Source of the DNA: Acidimicrobiia bacterium
GTDB lineage: Bacteria > Actinomycetota > Acidimicrobiia > Acidimicrobiales > Poriferisodalaceae
DNA length: 64,000 bases
Assembly (NCBI GenBank): GCA_022826045.1
Contig: JAJDVQ010000001.1
Span: forward strand, 1 to 64,000
Direction of reading: 5' to 3'
Under the pieces are notes generated by a model, which saw only the letters and a program-made list of their open reading frames with translations, was not told the origin of the DNA and searched no databases. Position 1 is the stretch's first letter. Each line of letters opens with the position of its first letter. Positions 9,153 through 20,248 of this stretch are shown here, one piece after another. The translations under genes were made by a program, and so were the position numbers.

Positions 9153-9302
9153 GGCCGGTCGCTGTGCCTCGGCGGCACCGAAAGTCGCCTGCTGTTGTTC
9201 TTGCAGTTTTTCCGCTCTTGTTCGCTGCGCTCACGGGCCGCTCGGGCCACGGACTCGCCTAGCGGCTCAGCCTCCGGCGCACAGCGCTGATTGACTGCGC
9301 AC

Positions 9303-10799
9303 ATGGCAGATTTCGACTTGGTCATCGTCGGCACCGGCTCGGCCAATTCCATTCCCGGTCCCGAGTTCGACGACTGGTCGATCGCGATCGTCGAACGCGA
9401 AACGTTCGGTGGCACGTGCCTGAACGTGGGCTGCATTCCCTCCAAGATGTTGGTGTACGCGGCCGATGTGGCCGACACTATCGCGACGGCGGGCGACTAC
9501 GGCATCGCCGCCAGCTTTGACAGCGCCGACTGGCCTGCCATTCGAGATCGCGTCTTCGGTCGCATCGATCCCATCGCCAGCGGAGGGCGCGACTACCGCT
9601 TCGGCGCCGAATGCCCCAACATCACCGTGTTCGAGGGGGATGCCCGTTTCGTGAGCGACCGGCGCCTGGCGGTGCGCATGGGCGACGGCAGCACCGAATC
9701 GGTGTCGGGGCGCCATGTGGTGCTCGGCGCCGGCGCTCGTGCGTTCGTGCCTCCGTACCGCGGCTTGGGCACGGTGCCGTTCCACACCTCTGACACCGTG
9801 ATGCGGCTGGATTCGTTGCCAGAGTCGATGATCGTGCTTGGCGGCGGGTATATCGCCTGCGAGCTGGGCTACGTGTTCTCGGCGCTGGGAACCAACGTCA
9901 CGGTGGTCAACCGGGGTGAGCGGCTGCTGCGGACCGAGGACGACGACGTGTCTGCGGCATTCACGACGGCGGCGCAGCGCCACTTCGACCTGCGCCTCGG
10001 CGCGACGGTGACCTCCGTGCGCGGCGGAGCCGCGACCGGCAGCACAGTGCGCGGCGGAGCCGCGATCAGCGATGCAGTACGTGGTGGAGCCGCGGAGTTT
10101 GTGTACGCCGCCGACGGCTCGCCCAGTGCCCAAGGCAACTCCTACACGGTCGAATTCGACCGTGGCGGGCGTGCCGAGGCGGTGAGCGCCGATGTGCTGC
10201 TGGTGACCACAGGCCGGGTGCCCAACGGCGATCAGCTCGCCCTCGACCTTGCAGGAGTGGATGACGACGACGGCCGCGTGCTGACCGATGAGTACTACCG
10301 CACCTCGGCGCCTGGCGTCTGGGCCTTCGGCGACCTGTCGAGCGAGACCCAGCTCAAGCATCTCGCCAACGCGCAAGTGCGGGCGCTGAGGCACAACCTG
10401 CTGGTGGCCGAGGGGCAAGCCGACGGCCCCATGCGCACCGTCCGGGAGGATCTGGTCCCTCATGCGGTGTTCTCGCACCCGCAGGTCGCCTCGGTCGGCC
10501 TCACCGAGCGCGATGCACGGGCGGCGGGTCTGCCGATCTCGGTGGCCAACAAGCCCTTCGGCCACACGGCGTACGGCTGGGCGATGGAGGACACCGCCAG
10601 CTTCGCCAAGCTCATCGCACACGCCGAGACCCGCGAGCTGCTCGGCGCCCACATCATCGGCCCCCAGGCGTCCACCCTGATCCAGCAGCTCATCCAAGGG
10701 ATGTCCTTCGGCCAGACGGTCGACCAGATGGCCCACGACCAGTTCTATATCCACCCGGCGCTGACCGAGGTCATCGAGAACGCCCTGCTCGAGCTGTAG
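9303..10799 (+). CDS. mtr: Mycothione reductase
   Basis: FAD/NAD(P)H disulfide reductase of 498 aa that reduces oxidised mycothiol (mycothione) in the cytoplasm. The FAD motif is VIVGTGSANS; the redox-active pair is GGTCLNVGCIPSKM; the NAD(P)H motif is GGGYIACELG; the second FAD site is VWAFGDLSS; the C-terminal catalytic His-Glu is in YIHPALTEVIENAL. The wording GTGS-N-SIPG...F resembles mycothione reductases rather than lipoamide dehydrogenases. An odd insertion in the NAD domain, with three copies of VRGGAA and about 30 extra residues (codons near 10015-10130), is likely a surface loop expanded by slippage. Confidence 0.82.
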   Translation: MADFDLVIVGTGSANSIPGPEFDDWSIAIVERETFGGTCLNVGCIPSKMLVYAADVADTIATAGDYGIAASFDSADWPAIRDRVFGRIDPIASGGRDYRFGAECPNITVFEGDARFVSDRRLAVRMGDGSTESVSGRHVVLGAGARAFVPPYRGLGTVPFHTSDTVMRLDSLPESMIVLGGGYIACELGYVFSALGTNVTVVNRGERLLRTEDDDVSAAFTTAAQRHFDLRLGATVTSVRGGAATGSTVRGGAAISDAVRGGAAEFVYAADGSPSAQGNSYTVEFDRGGRAEAVSADVLLVTTGRVPNGDQLALDLAGVDDDDGRVLTDEYYRTSAPGVWAFGDLSSETQLKHLANAQVRALRHNLLVAEGQADGPMRTVREDLVPHAVFSHPQVASVGLTERDARAAGLPISVANKPFGHTAYGWAMEDTASFAKLIAHAETRELLGAHIIGPQASTLIQQLIQGMSFGQTVDQMAHDQFYIHPALTEVIENALLEL

Positions 10800-12484: not shown

Positions 12485-13609
12485 TCAGTTTGATGAGGGT
12501 CCGGCGTTTCCGGCGACGGCACCGGCGATGGTGATCGTGCCGACGTTGCCGTCGACGAGTTCGCCGATCACCGCGGCGTCGTGGCCGTTGCCGCGCAGCT
12601 CGCGCACGGCATCGTGGGCGCGTGCGGGATCGCAGCTGAACAGCAGGCCGCCGGAGGTCTGCGGGTCGCCGAGCACAATGCGGGTGAGCTCGTCGCCGCC
12701 GTCGAGGCGCTCGACGAGGTGATCGAGGTTGCGCCCGGTGCCTCCGGGCACGAAGCCGCCGGTCGCAAGCCCAGTGACATCGGGCAATAGCGGCACTTCG
12801 CTGGCATCGACCACGGCACTCGCCTCGCTGGCTGCAGCAAGTTCTGCCAGGTGTCCGAGCAGGCCGAATCCGGTGACATCGGTGGCCGCAGTCGCTCGTG
12901 CGCTGATTGCAGCGGCGGCTGCCGCATCGTTGAGCCTGCACATCTCGGCTATGCCGGCCGCAGACGCCGCGTGCAGATCGCCGCCCGGCTCGGTGGCCTC
13001 GGGACCGGAACGCTTCAGCGCGGTCGCGAGCAGGCCGGTGCCGAGCGGCTTGGTGATCACGAGCGCCTGGCCCGGCTGGCCGCCGGCGTTGGTGAGCAGG
13101 CCCGTGCCGTCGCTGGCCGGCCGGCAAGTGCCAGTCACCGACATGCCATAGAGCGGCTCGGGCGCGTCGATGGTGTGACCGCCGGCCACCACCCAGCCGC
13201 CGTCCGCCGCGGCATCCGCACCGCCGGCGAGCACCTCGCCCAGCAAGTCCAGCGGGAGCACATCGCGCGGCCAGGCCGCCAGGTTGAGGGCGAACAGCGG
13301 ACTGGCACCCATCGCGTAGATGTCGCTGGCGGCATTCGCCGCCGCGATGCGTCCCCACGTGCGCGCATCGTCCACGATCGGCGCGAAGAAGTCGGTCGAG
13401 TTCACCAGCAGCCGGTCGCCGTCGAGCCGCCACACGGCGGCATCGTCGCTGGTGTCGGTGCCGACCACCAGGTCCGGGTGCGACGGGGGAGTCAGATGGC
13501 GCAGAACCTGCGCCAGCTCGGAAGGCCCGAGCTTGCACGCTCAGCCCGCACCGTGGCTGTACTGGCTCAGCCGGAACGCCGGGCTGTTCGCAGTGCTGTC
13601 GATTGGCAC
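12485..13609 (-). CDS. selD: Selenide, water dikinase (selenophosphate synthetase), UGA-encoded selenocysteine at the active site
   Basis: Makes selenophosphate from selenide and ATP, the Se donor for selenocysteine and selenouridine. Read through an in-frame TGA at 13543-13541, the protein is 374 aa and begins MPIDSTANSPAFRLSQYSHGAG-U-ACK. The TGA falls exactly on the catalytic Cys/Sec of SelD (Cys17 in E. coli, HGAGCGCK), and the conserved Lys follows three residues later. The remaining AIRS-type fold is complete: VGTDTSDDAAV, NAASDIYAMGA, VVAGGHTI, VTGFGLLGH, GDPQTSGGLL. GTG 13609 is the only good in-frame start; no strong ribosome site is seen. A hairpin follows the TGA. Reading from 13468 would drop the catalytic residues. 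It lies 62 bp after the DinB-like gene. Confidence 0.88.
13515..13543 (-). promoter_or_regulatory. Sec codon and candidate bacterial SECIS of selD
   Basis: The UGA at 13543-13541 is followed after 7 nt by a perfect 7-bp stem AGCUCGG (13533-13527) / CCGAGCU (13521-13515) with a 5-nt loop GCCUU. The loop starts with G, as bacterial SECIS loops require, and begins 14 nt after the UGA, slightly nearer than usual. Confidence 0.6.
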
Positions 13610-13671: not shown

Positions 13672-14388
13672 CTACAGCTTGGTGATGCTGGGCGCGGGGG
13701 CGTCGGTCTCGCCCCAGTAGTGGGGGAGACGCAGATAGCCGAAGCGCGTCAGCTCGACCGCCGAAGCCAGCCCCTGGATCTCCTTGATCCGCTGAATGGA
13801 GCGGATGTGCGAGGCCATCTCGTAGAACAGCATCCAGATCGCGCACTCGAGCGTGTTCACGATCATGCGCTCGTCGTCGGGATCATGCCAAGCACCCCGG
13901 GGCAGCACCGTGATGGCGTCGTCCCAGAAGAGCGTGCTGTGACGTGACTCCACCATCTCTCGGAAGGTCTCGATCGGATGGGACGCGACCGCGTAGCGCA
14001 TCCAGCTCAGGCCCAGGTCCAGCTTGTCGAGCAGATCGGGCACGTCCCAGAACAGCTCAGGATCCAGCCGCAGATCGTGCTTGCTGTTGGGTCCCTGGTG
14101 ATGCTGGGACCACACGATGGGGTCGGGAATGTCGCCGTCGGGCCACAGCAGCATCCCGCAGCGCCGCTTCGCGAAGATCAGCGACACCCAGGCGATGTGG
14201 CTGATCTGGCGCCGGATCGACCACCACATCAGCTCCCGGTCGGGAGACTGGTCGTCGAGGTCGAGCTGGGCATCGCTCAGCCCGTCGACCTCGGCGCGCA
14301 GCCACAGATCGATGTGGGAGAAGTACGGCATCGTGCCGGCTGTGTCGTCAGCCGGCATCTCCAGCACCGAAGGATCGACCCGCGCCAT
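13672..14388 (-). CDS. DinB-superfamily-like protein
   Basis: Protein of 238 aa with a four-helix DinB-type layout: WWSIRRQISHIAW in the second helix and FYEMASHIRSIQRI near the C-terminus supply His residues that could bind a metal. The DinB/YfiT fold includes mycothiol-dependent transferases in Actinobacteria, but function here is unknown. ATG 14388 is preceded at 6 nt by a TAGCGT box, so it has its own leaderless-type promoter and probably drives selD, the nadD-like gene and the oxygenase gene as well. Confidence 0.6.
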   Translation of the reverse strand: MARVDPSVLEMPADDTAGTMPYFSHIDLWLRAEVDGLSDAQLDLDDQSPDRELMWWSIRRQISHIAWVSLIFAKRRCGMLLWPDGDIPDPIVWSQHHQGPNSKHDLRLDPELFWDVPDLLDKLDLGLSWMRYAVASHPIETFREMVESRHSTLFWDDAITVLPRGAWHDPDDERMIVNTLECAIWMLFYEMASHIRSIQRIKEIQGLASAVELTRFGYLRLPHYWGETDAPAPSITKL

Positions 14389-14411: not shown

Positions 14412-17321
14412 CTAATCAGTCTCGAAGGCGCGGGGGTCTGGGCAGGCGCACATGAGGTTGCGGTCGCCGTAGGCACCGTCGATGCGGCTGACCGGCGGCC
14501 AGTACTTGTCTGCCACCTGCGTCGCCACGCCGGTGCCGGCCGGGTAGGCGGCCTCGGTGCGCGAGTAGGGGTGCTCCCACTCGTCGGCCAGCACGTCGAT
14601 CGCCGTGTGGGGTGCGTTGGCGAGCGGGTTGTTGTCGGCGGGCCACTCGCCCCCCGCCACCCTGTCGATCTCGGAACGGATCGTCGCCATCGCATCGCAG
14701 AACCGGTCGATCTCCGCCAGCGACTCGCTCTCGGTGGGCTCGATCATCAGCGTCCCCGCGACCGGGAACGACATCGTCGGGGCATGGAATCCGAAGTCGA
14801 TGAGCCGCTTGGCCACGTCGTCCACGCTGGCCCACTCCGAGAACGGCCGCAGATCCACGATGCACTCGTGCGCGACTAGCCCGTAGCGGCCTTGGTACAG
14901 GATCGGATAGTGCTCGCCGAGGCGCGAGGCCAGGTAGTTGGCCGACAGGATCGCCGTCTGGGTGGCCTGGGTGAGGCCGTCCACTCCCATCATGGCGATG
15001 TACATCCACGGGATCGGCAGGATGCCCGCCGAGCCCCACGGCGCTGACGAGATCGCTCCCGGACCGGTCTCGGGGCCGGCAGTGGGCGCCAGCGGGTGGT
15101 TGGGCAGGTACTTGGCCAAGTGCAGGCGGCACGCCACCGGCCCGATGCCCGGCCCGCCGCCGCCGTGGGGAATGCAGAACGTCTTGTGCAGGTTGAGATG
15201 GCTGACATCGGCGCCGAACGTGCCCGGCGCGGCGAGGCCGACGAGGGCGTTGAGGTTGGCGCCGTCCACATAGACCTGCCCGCCCGCTTCGTGCACCTTG
15301 AGACAGACCTGCCGGATGCCGTCCTCGTAGACACCGTGCGTGGAGGGGTAGGTGGCCATGAATGCGGCGAGCTGATCGCCGTGCTCGGCGATCTTGGCGT
15401 CGAGGTCGTCGAGGTCGACGTCGCCGTCGTCGGTGCAGCCCACCACCACCACCCGCATGCCGGCCATCACGGCCGATGCGGCGTTGGTGCCGTGCGCGGA
15501 AGAGGGGATGAGGCACACGGTGCGGTGGGCGTCGCCTCGGTCGTCGTGGTAGCCGCGGATGGCGAGCAGCCCGGCCAGCTCGCCCTGGGAGCCCGCATTG
15601 GGCTGCAACGACACGGCGTCGTAGCCGGTGATCGCCGCCAGCCACCGTTCGAGGTCGGCGATGATCTGGCGGTAGCCCTCCCACTGGTCAGGCGGCGCGA
15701 ACGGGTGGATGTCGGCCAACTGCGGCCAGGTCACCGGCGTCATCTCCGCTGCAGCGTTGAGCTTCATCGTGCAGCTGCCCAGCGGGATCATCGAGCGGTC
15801 CAGCGCCACGTCGGCCGAGGCCAGCCGGCGCAGGTAGCGCATCATCTCAGTCTCGGAGCGGTGCGAGTGAAAGGTGGGGTGCGTGAGGTACTTGCTGGTG
15901 CGCCGCAGCTCGGCGGCGATGCCCGACGGCGCCGAGGCTGCCAACCCTGCCACCGTGCCCACATCGGCCGAGCTGCCGCCTGCGGGCGTGCCGAACGCAT
16001 CCAGGAGGTGCGCGACCGTCGCTTCGTCGCAGGTCTCGTCCAGCGAGACGCCGACCGTGCCGGCGTCGACGCGCCGCAGGTTGAAACCCGCTGCGAGCGC
16101 AGCGTCCGCTACGAGGTCGGCGGCACCGGGGACCCCCACTGTCAGGGTGTCGAAGTAGGTGTCGTTGCGCACTCGCAAGCCCAAGTTGCCCAAGCCCGCG
16201 GCGAGCGCCGCTGTCAGCCGGTGCACCCGCCCAGCGATCTCGGCCAGGCCATCGGGACCGTGCCAGACCGCATACATCGAGGCCACCACCGCCAGCAGCA
16301 CCTGCGCGGTGCAGATGTTGCTGGTGGCCTTCTCTCGCCGTATGTGCTGCTCGCGGGTCTGCAATGCCAGGCGGTACGCGGATCTGCCAACCGCGTCCAC
16401 TGAAACACCCACGAGGCGCCCCGGCATCGAGCGGCGATGCTTCTCGCTGGTCGCGAGGAATGCCGCATGCGGGCCGCCGAAGCCGAGCGGCACGCCGAAG
16501 CGCTGCGAGCTGCCCACCACGATGTCGGCGCCCTGCTCGCCCGGCGGCTGCAGCACGCAGCACGCCAGCAGGTCGGCCGTGACGGCCGCAATCGCACCCG
16601 TGCCGTGCAAGGCCTCGATCACCGGTTGAAGGTTGCGGACGGCACCGCTGCTGCCGGGGTACGCCAGCAATGCGCCGTACACGTTGGCGGGTGCCAGATC
16701 GGTCGCCGGGTCGCCCACCACGATGTTGATGCCGAGCGGCTGGGCACGTGTGCACACCACATCGATGACCTGAGGATGGCAGTCGGCATCGACGAAGAAG
16801 CAGTCCGGCCCGCTGCGGGTGATGCGCCGCGCCATGGCCATCGCCTCAGCAGCGGCGGTGCCCTCGCACAGCAGCGACGAGTTGGCGATCTCCATGCCCA
16901 CGAGGTCGCACACCATCGTCTGGTAGTTGAGCAGCGCCTCGAGCCGCCCTTGGGAGATCTCGGGCTGGTACGGCGTGTAGGCCGTGTACCACGATGGGTC
17001 CTCCAGCACACCGCGCCGGATGACTGCGGGCGTGAGGGTGCCGTAGTAGCCCAGCCCGATCAGCGAGTGCACCTGGGTGTTGGCATTGGCCAGCCGTCGC
17101 ATCGCCGCGGTGGCTTCCTTCTCGGTCAGCGGACGGTCGATGCCGTCGAGCACGATCGGCTCGTCGATCCGGATCTCGGCGGGCACGGCGGTATCGACGA
17201 GTTCGGTGAGCGAGCTGAATCCGAGCCGCTTGAGCATGACGGCAACGTCGTCGGGACCCAGGCCGATGTGACGTGCTGCAAATGCTCCTACTGCGTTCGT
17301 GCCTACGGGGGGTTCACTCAT
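14412..17321 (-). CDS. gcvP: Glycine dehydrogenase (decarboxylating), P-protein of the glycine cleavage system
   Basis: PLP enzyme of 969 aa, full length for the fused (homodimeric) type. It decarboxylates glycine and passes the aminomethyl group to lipoyl GcvH. The PLP lysine is in [18 protein letters not shown] (about residue 710); the N-terminal half contains [10 protein letters not shown] and [17 protein letters not shown], and the C-terminal half GSCTMKLNA and [20 protein letters not shown] precedes the ATG. It is 70 bp downstream of gcvT and surely co-transcribed. No gcvH or lpd gene is in the window, so those must be elsewhere. Confidence 0.97.
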
Positions 17322-17391: not shown

Positions 17392-18531
17392 TCATGACGG
17401 CCTCCAGTAGCGGTGCTCCACGAACGGCAGCGGGGCGACCCGGCATGGCTCGGCGCCCTTGCGGCCCTCGGCAAACAGCTCCGTGCCGTCAGCCGAATGC
17501 TCGGTCGCCACATAGGCCATGGCGATCGGCGCTTCCACCGTGGGGCCGAAGCCGCCGCTCGTCACCATGCCGACGCTGGTGCCGTCGGAGGTGCTCAGCG
17601 CGGCACCGTCGCGAATCGGACGGCGGCCCTCGGCCGCGATGCCCACCCGCTGGCGCGGCGGCCCGCCAGCAAGCTGCGCCGTGATGATCTCCGCACCGGG
17701 GAATCCGCCGCCAGCGCGCCGCCGCTTCGGGATCGACCAGCCCAGTCCGGCCTCGGCTGGCGTTGTCGCCTCGGTGAGCTCGTGGCCCACCAGCGGCAGG
17801 CCCGCCTCGAGGCGCAGCGTGTCGCGGGCGCCGAGTCCTGCGGGGGAAACCTCGTCAGCGCTCAGCAGCAGCCGTGCGATATGGGTCGCCTCGCCTGCCG
17901 GAATGGCAACTTCGAACCCGTCCTCGCCCGTGTACCCGCAGCGCGACACCTCGCACTCGACACCGTCGATCGGCAGCGTGGCGGTGGACATGAACGCCAG
18001 CTCTGCGGCTTCCGGCGCCCAGCGAGCCAGCACGCCGGCCGCCGCTGGACCCTGCAGCGCCACCAGCGCCAGATCGGTGCGCACCTCAAGGCACACATCG
18101 CCGTTGTCGCCGCCGTTGACTGCCCGCAGCATCGACAGGTCGGCTTCGGTGCGCACAGCATTGACCACGATGCGCAGCCGATCGGCATGACGCGACACGA
18201 TCAGGTCGTCAAGCACACCGCCCGCCGCAGTAGTGAACAGCGTGTAGCGCATGCGTCCCGGCACGAGGCTGGTGACGGCACCCGGCACGCAGCCCTCCAG
18301 CCAGGCTGCCACGTCGCCTGTGTCATCGTTGCCCCCCGGATGCAGCTCGACGATGCCCATGTGGCTGACGTCGAACAGCCCTGCCGCCGTGCGGGTGGCG
18401 CGGTGCTCGGCCACGGTGCCGTTGCCGTAGCGCATGGGCAGCGCGTGGCCGCCGAAGTCGACCATCCGGCCGCCGAGTTCGGTGTGCAGGTCGAACAGCG
18501 GGGTGCGTGCGCCGCCGTTGGCGTCAGTCAT
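17392..18531 (-). CDS. gcvT: Aminomethyltransferase, T-protein of the glycine cleavage system
   Basis: Folate-dependent enzyme of 379 aa that releases ammonia from the aminomethyl-lipoyl H-protein and forms 5,10-methylene-THF. Motifs: FGGHALPMRYGNGTVAEH at the N-terminus, LFDVSHMG with the conserved Asp, CGYTGEDGFEV, and LGARDTLRLEAGLPLVGHEL. Length is normal. ATG 18531 is used (a TTG precedes it). It starts 19 bp after the Sec-containing ArsC-like gene and precedes gcvP. A dual glycine riboswitch was looked for and not seen in the short upstream gap. Confidence 0.95.
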   Translation of the reverse strand: MTDANGGARTPLFDLHTELGGRMVDFGGHALPMRYGNGTVAEHRATRTAAGLFDVSHMGIVELHPGGNDDTGDVAAWLEGCVPGAVTSLVPGRMRYTLFTTAAGGVLDDLIVSRHADRLRIVVNAVRTEADLSMLRAVNGGDNGDVCLEVRTDLALVALQGPAAAGVLARWAPEAAELAFMSTATLPIDGVECEVSRCGYTGEDGFEVAIPAGEATHIARLLLSADEVSPAGLGARDTLRLEAGLPLVGHELTEATTPAEAGLGWSIPKRRRAGGGFPGAEIITAQLAGGPPRQRVGIAAEGRRPIRDGAALSTSDGTSVGMVTSGGFGPTVEAPIAMAYVATEHSADGTELFAEGRKGAEPCRVAPLPFVEHRYWRPS

Positions 18532-18550
18532 CAACCGGTCCGGCTCAGCC

Positions 18551-18910
18551 TCAGTCGGCCAGCAGCTCGGCGATGCGGCCCTTCGGACGTCCGACGATGG
18601 CTCGGTTGCCGCGCACCACGACGGGACGCTGCATGAGCGCCTTGCGTCGGCTCAGCAGATCCACCACTGCGGCGGGATTGCCGACGTAGTCGTCGGCGTC
18701 GAGCCCCAGCTTGCGGAACTGCGAGTCCTTGCGCACCAGGTCTTCGACGGGGCCCTCGAGTATCGACACCAAGTGTTCGAGCGTCTCCCGGTCGGGCGGC
18801 GTCTTCATATACAGGACGACATCGGTATCGACTCCAGCTTCCTCGGCGACCGCCAAGGCATTCCGGGACGAGTTTCAATGCGGGTTGTGGTAGATAGTCA
18901 CCTCGGCCAT
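18551..18910 (-). CDS. ArsC-like reductase with UGA-encoded selenocysteine
   Basis: Thioredoxin-fold protein of 119 aa when read through the in-frame TGA at 18877-18875. It starts MAEVTIYHNPH-U-NSSRNALAV. In ArsC/Spx-family proteins this position is the catalytic Cys of HNPxCxxSR (Cys12 in R773 ArsC), and Sec is also residue 12 here. The rest is canonical: RKDSQFRKLGL, ALMQRPVVV and a C-terminal VGRPKG. ArsC enzymes reduce arsenate with glutaredoxin; some relatives have other substrates, so arsenate reduction is inference. A -10 box lies 7 nt before the ATG. A conventional call would begin at 18856 and lose the active site. It is followed by gcvT after 19 bp. Confidence 0.88.
18841..18877 (-). 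promoter_or_regulatory. Sec codon and candidate bacterial SECIS of the ArsC-like gene
   Basis: The UGA at 18877-18875 is followed after 16 nt by a 7-bp stem CCUUGGC (18858-18852) / GCCGAGG (18847-18841), one pair being G-U, closed by the tetraloop GGUC. The loop begins 23 nt after the UGA. Both spacing and the GGUC loop match the fdhF-type SECIS bound by SelB. Confidence 0.72.
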
Positions 18911-18917
18911 GGGGCCG

Positions 18918-18923
18918 AAGTTA
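18918..18923 (-). promoter_or_regulatory. Putative -10 box, leaderless start
   Basis: TAACTT on the minus strand is followed by 7 nt and the ATG at 18910, giving the ArsC-gcvT-gcvP unit a promoter separate from serB. Confidence 0.4.
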
Positions 18924-18964
18924 CCTGCGCATGACACCCAAGTCTGGTCATGCAGCCACGACAG

Positions 18965-20248
18965 TCATGGCAGCAACGACGAGAGCGGCCGCTCGGCATG
19001 CAGCGGCGGCGTCGAGGCGTCCGCGGCTTCGACTTCCTCGCGTGTGACGCCCAGCATGAACAGGATCGCGTCCAGGTATGGGACGTTCACGGTGGTGTCC
19101 GCCGCATCGGCGACCACCGGCTTGGCGTTGAAGGCGATGCCGAGACCCGCCGCTGTCAGCATGGGCAGGTCGTTGGCGCCGTCGCCCACGGCCACGATCT
19201 GCTCCAGCGGCACGCCCTCGATGTACGCGAGCTGGCGCAGCAGCCGCGCCTTGGCTTCGGCGTCGATCACTTCGCCGACCAGCTCGCCGGTCAGCCGACC
19301 GTCGCGGATCTCGAGCTCGTTGGCGTAGGCGTGATCGAACTTGAACCGCGTCGCCAGGTGATCGGCGAAGTGCGTGAATCCGCCGGAGATGATCGCCACC
19401 TTGTAGCCCAGCCGCTTCAGGGTGCGGGCGAAGGTGCGGGCGCCCCGCGTGAGGTTCATGTGCACGATGGCTGTGTCGATGATCGAGACGGGCTGGCCGG
19501 TCAGCAGCCGTACCCGCTTGCGCAGCGATGTCTCGAAGTCGATCTCGCCGGCCATGGCGGCTGCGGTCAGCTCCGCCGAGCGAGCCTCGTGGCCGGCCTC
19601 GGCGGCCAGCAGGTCGATCACCTCGTTGCGGATGAGGGTGGAGTCGACGTCCATCACGATCATGCGGGTCGAACGCCGTGACAGGCCGTGGGGCTGCACG
19701 GCGATGTCGATCCGGCGCTCAGCGGCCACCTCGATCAGGTCGGTGCGGAGCTTGTCGCTCTCGGCGCCCTCGACCAAGAACTCGTAGCTCCACACCGGGA
19801 AGCGGGAGAGGCGGTGGATGCGGTCGATGTTCCCGCCGCTGGTGGCGATCGCCCCGGTCACGACCGACAGGTCGGCGGGCTTGAGCTCGGGCGCCAGGGC
19901 GGTGACCACGAGGCGCTCCGCATGCTTGGTCGGCGTGGCGTCGACGACTTCGAAGTTCATCTCCAGGCCCCGCTCGTAGCCGAACAGCAGCACCTCTTTG
20001 ACCAAGTCTCGGCCTGCGGGGACCGTGATCGCGAGTCCGAGCGTGAGCTGTCGGCGCACGACGACCTGCTCCATGTCCTGCACCTCCGCGCCTGCACCCG
20101 AGAGCAGGGCCAGCAGGTCGGTGGTGATGCCCGGGCCGTCGGGGCCGGTCACCCGGATGAGGATCGTGTCCCTGGGCGCGACATCGCTGGCTGCATTGTC
20201 GGATGCATCGTCCGCAGCTTCATCGGCCGCATCGTCGTCGGGCGCCAC
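18965..20248 (-). CDS. serB: Phosphoserine phosphatase with N-terminal ACT domains
   Basis: Protein of 427 aa performing the last step of serine synthesis. After a 25-residue Asp/Ala-rich tail come two ACT-like regions (residues about 27-185), then the HAD phosphatase domain: DVDSTLIR (nucleophile, about 200), ISGGFT, and GDGANDLPML (about 355). Length and layout match mycobacterial SerB2. GTG start with a TAGCCT box 9 nt upstream. It heads the minus-strand block containing the Sec-ArsC, gcv and selD genes; serine is the precursor of both glycine and selenocysteine. Confidence 0.92.
   Translation of the reverse strand: MAPDDDAADEAADDASDNAASDVAPRDTILIRVTGPDGPGITTDLLALLSGAGAEVQDMEQVVVRRQLTLGLAITVPAGRDLVKEVLLFGYERGLEMNFEVVDATPTKHAERLVVTALAPELKPADLSVVTGAIATSGGNIDRIHRLSRFPVWSYEFLVEGAESDKLRTDLIEVAAERRIDIAVQPHGLSRRSTRMIVMDVDSTLIRNEVIDLLAAEAGHEARSAELTAAAMAGEIDFETSLRKRVRLLTGQPVSIIDTAIVHMNLTRGARTFARTLKRLGYKVAIISGGFTHFADHLATRFKFDHAYANELEIRDGRLTGELVGEVIDAEAKARLLRQLAYIEGVPLEQIVAVGDGANDLPMLTAAGLGIAFNAKPVVADAADTTVNVPYLDAILFMLGVTREEVEAADASTPPLHAERPLSSLLP

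Follow-up and report, generated by a model that had tools for sequence, protein, structure and literature searches.

A selenocysteine (Sec)-containing 'arsenate reductase' family with a UxxS motif was reported from the Sargasso Sea with 14 sequences (Zhang 2005, PMC1088965). The same family appears as 'ArsC 1', with 77 sequences, in the GOS study of 2008 (PMC2398784), and it is also listed in reviews of 2022 and 2026, with MBT3519430.1 as an example (PMC9312934, PMC13188914). In the Cys-dependent ArsC of E. coli, arsenate is bound by an Arg60/94/107 triad that is missing from YffB proteins (PMC3169414). Here, we describe an arsC gene in a 64,000-nucleotide stretch of Acidimicrobiia DNA, hereafter the window. 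An earlier note on this DNA had called the gene product a selenoprotein and had pointed to Sec-containing ArsC-like proteins in selenoproteome surveys, in agreement with the literature (PMC1088965, PMC2398784, PMC13188914). The features of the locus are listed in Table 1.

Table 1. Features of the window that bear on arsC(Sec), with the evidence for each.
Feature	Position	Strand	Evidence
arsC(Sec), ArsC-type arsenate reductase, 119 aa	18551..18910	(-)	Pfam ArsC, TIGR00014, homology to solved structures
In-frame UGA, arsC codon 12, predicted to be read as Sec	18875..18877	(-)	aligned with catalytic Cys12 of ArsC
Putative bacterial SECIS (5' arm 18858-18852, GGUC loop 18851-18848, 3' arm 18847-18841)	18841..18858	(-)	covariation, invariant loop
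serB, upstream neighbour of arsC	18965..20248	(-)	TIGR00338 241 bits, synteny
gcvT, downstream neighbour of arsC	17392..18534	(-)	TIGR00528 297 bits, synteny
gcvP, conserved in cluster	14412..17321	(-)	TIGR00461 1355 bits, synteny
Conserved uncharacterised protein (238 aa) between gcvP and selD	13672..14388	(-)	synteny
selD, selenide water dikinase (start GTG 13609 a guess)	12485..13609	(-)	TIGR00476 357 bits
Mycothione reductase	9291..10799	(+)	NF005884 607 bits

The in-frame UGA of arsC and its homologues

The arsC gene opens with ATG GCC GAG on the minus strand, continues through CCG CAT TGA AAC TCG and stops at a second UGA (18553-18551). The standard-code reading cuts the gene off at its active site, and the longest table-11 open reading frame in this frame starts at TTG 18856 and encodes 101 residues that lack the active site. 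Reading through the first UGA yields a 119-residue product (MAEVTIYHNPHUNSSRNALAVAEEAG...). The Pfam ArsC score rises from 35.1 bits for the short form to 51.2 bits for the full form, passing the gathering score of 24, and the TIGR00014 score rises from 57.1 to 92.2 bits. TIGR00014 is the best family for the product, yet 92.2 bits lies below its 106-bit equivalog cut-off, and the product is therefore filed as an ArsC-family protein and not as a certified equivalog. Homologous ArsC structures have been solved (3rdw, 2mu0 and 1jzw), and the host genome yielded no PF03960 gene besides arsC(Sec).

What does the UGA at codon 12 encode? The codon is aligned with the redox Cys of homologous proteins. 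A scan of GTDB genomes provided 25 relatives, with TGA at codon 12 in 23 and TGC in two, and a search of 198 Acidimicrobiia genomes provided 29 further loci that were read. Codon 12 is TGA or TGC, and nothing else, across these 54 homologues, and UGA occupies it in 37 of the 55 ArsC genes read, the window's included. The occurrence of UGA at this codon is thus well beyond chance. Furthermore, selA scores above cut-off in all 19 genomes of the class with a TGA inside the ArsC match, compared with 134 of the full set of 198 (Fisher p = 4e-4, a value that ignores shared ancestry); in five of the 19, the TGA lies within the match and its exact position was not read. No selA was found in the genomes of the close Cys homologues G019, G095, G040, G004 and G035, in the case of G040 and G004 by its absence among the matches listed. 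In the tree, the Cys gene of G019 is placed with Sec members of its own family, and the best estimate of the number of Sec/Cys changes is seven, only three of which are forced by well-supported branches. This joint pattern of codon 12 and selA is as predicted for Sec/Cys exchange and unlike that expected of pseudogenes, and the exchange is seen to track the presence of selA.

Two further features of these genes were observed. In two genomes, a further ArsC-like match that contains one TGA (G187:C55:35816-36139 and G169:C30:2844-3170) is located 2-8 kb from the first Sec-arsC gene. Directly 5' of the ATG (18911-18930 in the window), GGTAACTT or GGTAGCTT is found in nine of ten arsC genes of the window's clade, and the same nine upstream regions contain no clear Shine-Dalgarno sequence. 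In this clade, arsC is possibly expressed from a leaderless transcript.

The SECIS hairpin and the selenocysteine machinery

A hairpin with a G in its apical loop is positioned just 3' of the arsC UGA. Its sequence is CCUUGGC-GGUC-GCCGAGG, in which the 7-bp stem begins 16 nt and the GGUC loop 23 nt past the UGA. Among 22 distinct arsC sequences, the stem is paired in 154 of 154 cells (100%) and the GGUC loop is invariant. Both sides have changed in pairs 22-35 (UA to GC or CG) and 24-33 (GC to AU), giving 12 double-change cells. Neither this result nor the covariation score was reached by any of 500 shuffles; since only two pairs carry double changes, the number of such pairs does not by itself exceed that in the shuffles. 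The codons of residues 18 (GCC), 20 (GCG) and 21 (GTC) are likewise invariant, and the most synonymously conserved six-codon segment of arsC spans codons 18-23, which score 0.85 where the rest of the gene averages 0.48. At the corresponding place, the Cys homologues have no such hairpin. In a sister group of six loci (L050, L053, L054, L056, L058 and L059), the GGUC hairpin is replaced by a different one whose loop (CGUGC or CGUGA) starts 17 nt past the UGA, and the SECIS has apparently shifted its position in the gene.

The host assembly (3.64 Mb in 104 contigs, 91% complete) contains selA (386 bits), selB (268 bits), selC and selD. Its one tRNA-Sec scores 67 bits against the 47-bit Rfam cut-off, and ARAGORN agrees on this tRNA, with anticodon TCA. 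The selD gene, which the earlier note overlooked as a Sec gene in the arsC cluster, has its own in-frame UGA at 13543-13541 (minus strand), in the GAG-U-ACK loop, and its table-11 open reading frame starts at 13468, beyond the active site. A TGA is present in 15 of the 17 SelDs that score above cut-off in genomes with arsC homologues. By these features, the selD gene of the window is itself a predicted Sec gene. A further candidate, an MshC-like gene on contig C97 with one TGA, was rejected as a selenoprotein gene, given that the TGA is 5' of its start codon.

Other origins of the arsC UGA can be weighed against these data. A single base separates TGC from TGA, so that a pseudogene or a sequencing error could in principle have converted a Cys codon into a stop. 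However, the same TGA recurs in 23 separate genome records and in more genomes of the class, the protein sequence beyond it is conserved, the SECIS shows covariation and the genomes possess Sec machinery; such an origin is refuted by this combination and retains a negligible probability. Translation from the internal TTG would match the table-11 open reading frame and produce the 101-residue protein. That reading is scarcely credible, because the residues 5' of the UGA, as well as the UGA itself, are conserved in homologues, which would not be the case for an untranslated stretch. We consider it equally improbable that UGA is a sense codon for Trp or Cys, through either general reassignment or a suppressor tRNA. 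No point in support of this reading was found, the UGA sits at a Cys active site and has a hairpin close by, and tRNA-Sec, selA, selB and selD are all present; general recoding is rejected because the neighbouring genes serB and gcvT, like arsC itself, terminate at UGA.

Four things can be read in the sequence, namely the arsC UGA, its SECIS, the Sec machinery and a conserved active site. From these, we infer Sec insertion at residue 12, and the arsC product is almost certainly a Sec-containing ArsC-family protein. The claims of the earlier note hold in this respect. The TGA at codon 12, at the site of the catalytic Cys12, was placed exactly, as were the 7-bp stem and the GGUC loop 23 nt from the UGA, and an ordinary annotation does start at 18856 and lose the active site. 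The proposed bacterial SECIS is supported by covariation, and the selenoprotein assignment by the Sec machinery, the restriction of codon 12 to UGA and UGC in relatives and the SECIS covariation. The note had also named two findings that would speak against it; instead of a genome devoid of selA, selB and tRNA-Sec, all three were found along with selD, and instead of relatives with an ordinary stop and no downstream conservation, the relatives keep the downstream protein and have UGA or UGC at codon 12.

The gene cluster and the putative function of Sec-ArsC

The gene order serB-arsC-gcvT-gcvP-(238-aa protein) is common to most of the window's clade and to a marine MedAcidi-type clade. About ten genomes of these two clades carry selD on the arsC strand, 6-8 kb further downstream, as confirmed in the three stretches that were read. 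The cluster serB-arsC(Sec)-gcvT-gcvP-X-selD(Sec) is conserved in two divergent clades. This neighbourhood is not shared within 5 kb of arsC in the distant Sec homologues (L019, L021 and L027-L030), and the cluster is thus typical of part of the class. The earlier note had regarded the context beside gcvT and serB as undescribed; the context is real and conserved, and no paper on the cluster was found in our incomplete coverage of the literature. The 238-aa protein has no Pfam or NCBIfam match, and its marine-clade counterpart, in the same place, is ~52% identical; a by-eye assignment as DinB-like was rejected for want of such a match. In both stretches whose open reading frames were listed, a nucleoside-hydrolase-like gene (named by eye) is located between the 238-aa protein gene and selD (L079 6036-7130 and L080 3099-4070). 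This gene is absent from the window.

The best explanation for the arsC product is a classical (glutaredoxin-type) ArsC in which Sec would replace the catalytic Cys12. Residues H8, U12, S15, R60, R95 and R108 are conserved in the ArsC alignment, and the product contains the complete HX3[C/U]X3R motif and Arg triad (H8, U12, R16, R60, R95 and R108). During translation, SelB with Sec-tRNA-Sec would bind the GGUC hairpin when the ribosome meets the UGA, leading to Sec insertion. The Sec-tRNA would be made by SelA from selenophosphate supplied by SelD, which is encoded ~5 kb from arsC. In the mature enzyme, Arg60, Arg95 and Arg108 would hold the arsenate for attack by the Sec selenolate, which lies beside His8, and arsenite would be released. 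The product has no cysteine at all, and an outside partner thiol would therefore be needed to resolve the oxidised Sec. Given the mycothione reductase gene of the window and the MshC-like genes of the host genome, which score below the family cut-off, mycothiol is the likeliest candidate for the thiol that re-reduces the oxidised Sec. No mycoredoxin was found in the host genome by TIGR02200.

Is arsenate the physiological substrate? We consider this probable. Neither ArsB nor Acr3, the two exporters sought, was found in the 91% complete host genome, and a role in arsenic resistance, which would lack the usual exporter, is accordingly made less likely. Sec-ArsC could instead be a selenol-based thiol or selenium reductase tied to selD and one-carbon metabolism, with a physiological reaction other than arsenic detoxification. 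Consistent with this alternative, no exporter was found, and arsC is clustered with the Sec-type selD, gcvT, gcvP and serB and not with ars genes. However, no aligned sequence departs from HX3[C/U] or from the Arg triad that binds arsenate, and TIGR00014 is the best family of the product. We therefore regard the alternative as unlikely. Still more doubtful is the specific proposal that Sec-ArsC belongs to a selenium gene neighbourhood and acts outside arsenic detoxification, for example by supplying SelD or one-carbon metabolism with a reduced thiol or selenium species, a role that would, if true, account for the exporter not being found. Arsenate reduction by a Sec-dependent classical ArsC is our preferred reading.

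Comparison with known ArsC-family proteins

The window's protein has the fold family in common with the YffB/Spx branch of the ArsC superfamily. It differs from YffB, which has no Arg triad (PMC3169414), and from Spx, whose models score far below TIGR00014 on the window's protein. The 'arsenate reductase 2', or arsenate reductase-like selenoprotein (NF041106), is an ArsC superfamily selenoprotein too, with a UxxC motif in place of the UxxS of the Cys-free window protein. The E. coli ArsC of the plasmid R773 type (1i9d and 1jzw) has the same fold family, HX3[C/U]X3R and the Arg60/94/107 triad at 32% identity; in contrast, the window's protein is predicted to have Sec for Cys12, is not encoded in an ars operon and is probably not glutathione-based.

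By motif and family, the arsC gene of the window belongs to the published UxxS Sec-ArsC family and would not represent a new kind. Like that family, it combines ArsC membership (COG1393/PF03960/TIGR00014), a predicted Sec at the catalytic position, UxxS (U12-N-S-S15) and a downstream SECIS. No paper on the selenoproteins of Acidimicrobiia was found in our incomplete coverage of the literature. Our additions are modest, namely the conserved cluster, the apparently relocated SECIS of the sister group and a host in which no ArsB or Acr3 pump was found. Sister enzymes with Sec and Cys, along with two SECIS positions in one gene, form a natural set for asking why a reductase keeps selenium. The published accounts of UxxS Sec-ArsC proteins, in the parts available, mention neither Acidimicrobiia nor a cluster with selD. 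With the window's gene, this selenoprotein family of marine metagenomes is placed in assembled genomes that have the complete Sec machinery and a conserved gene order around arsC.
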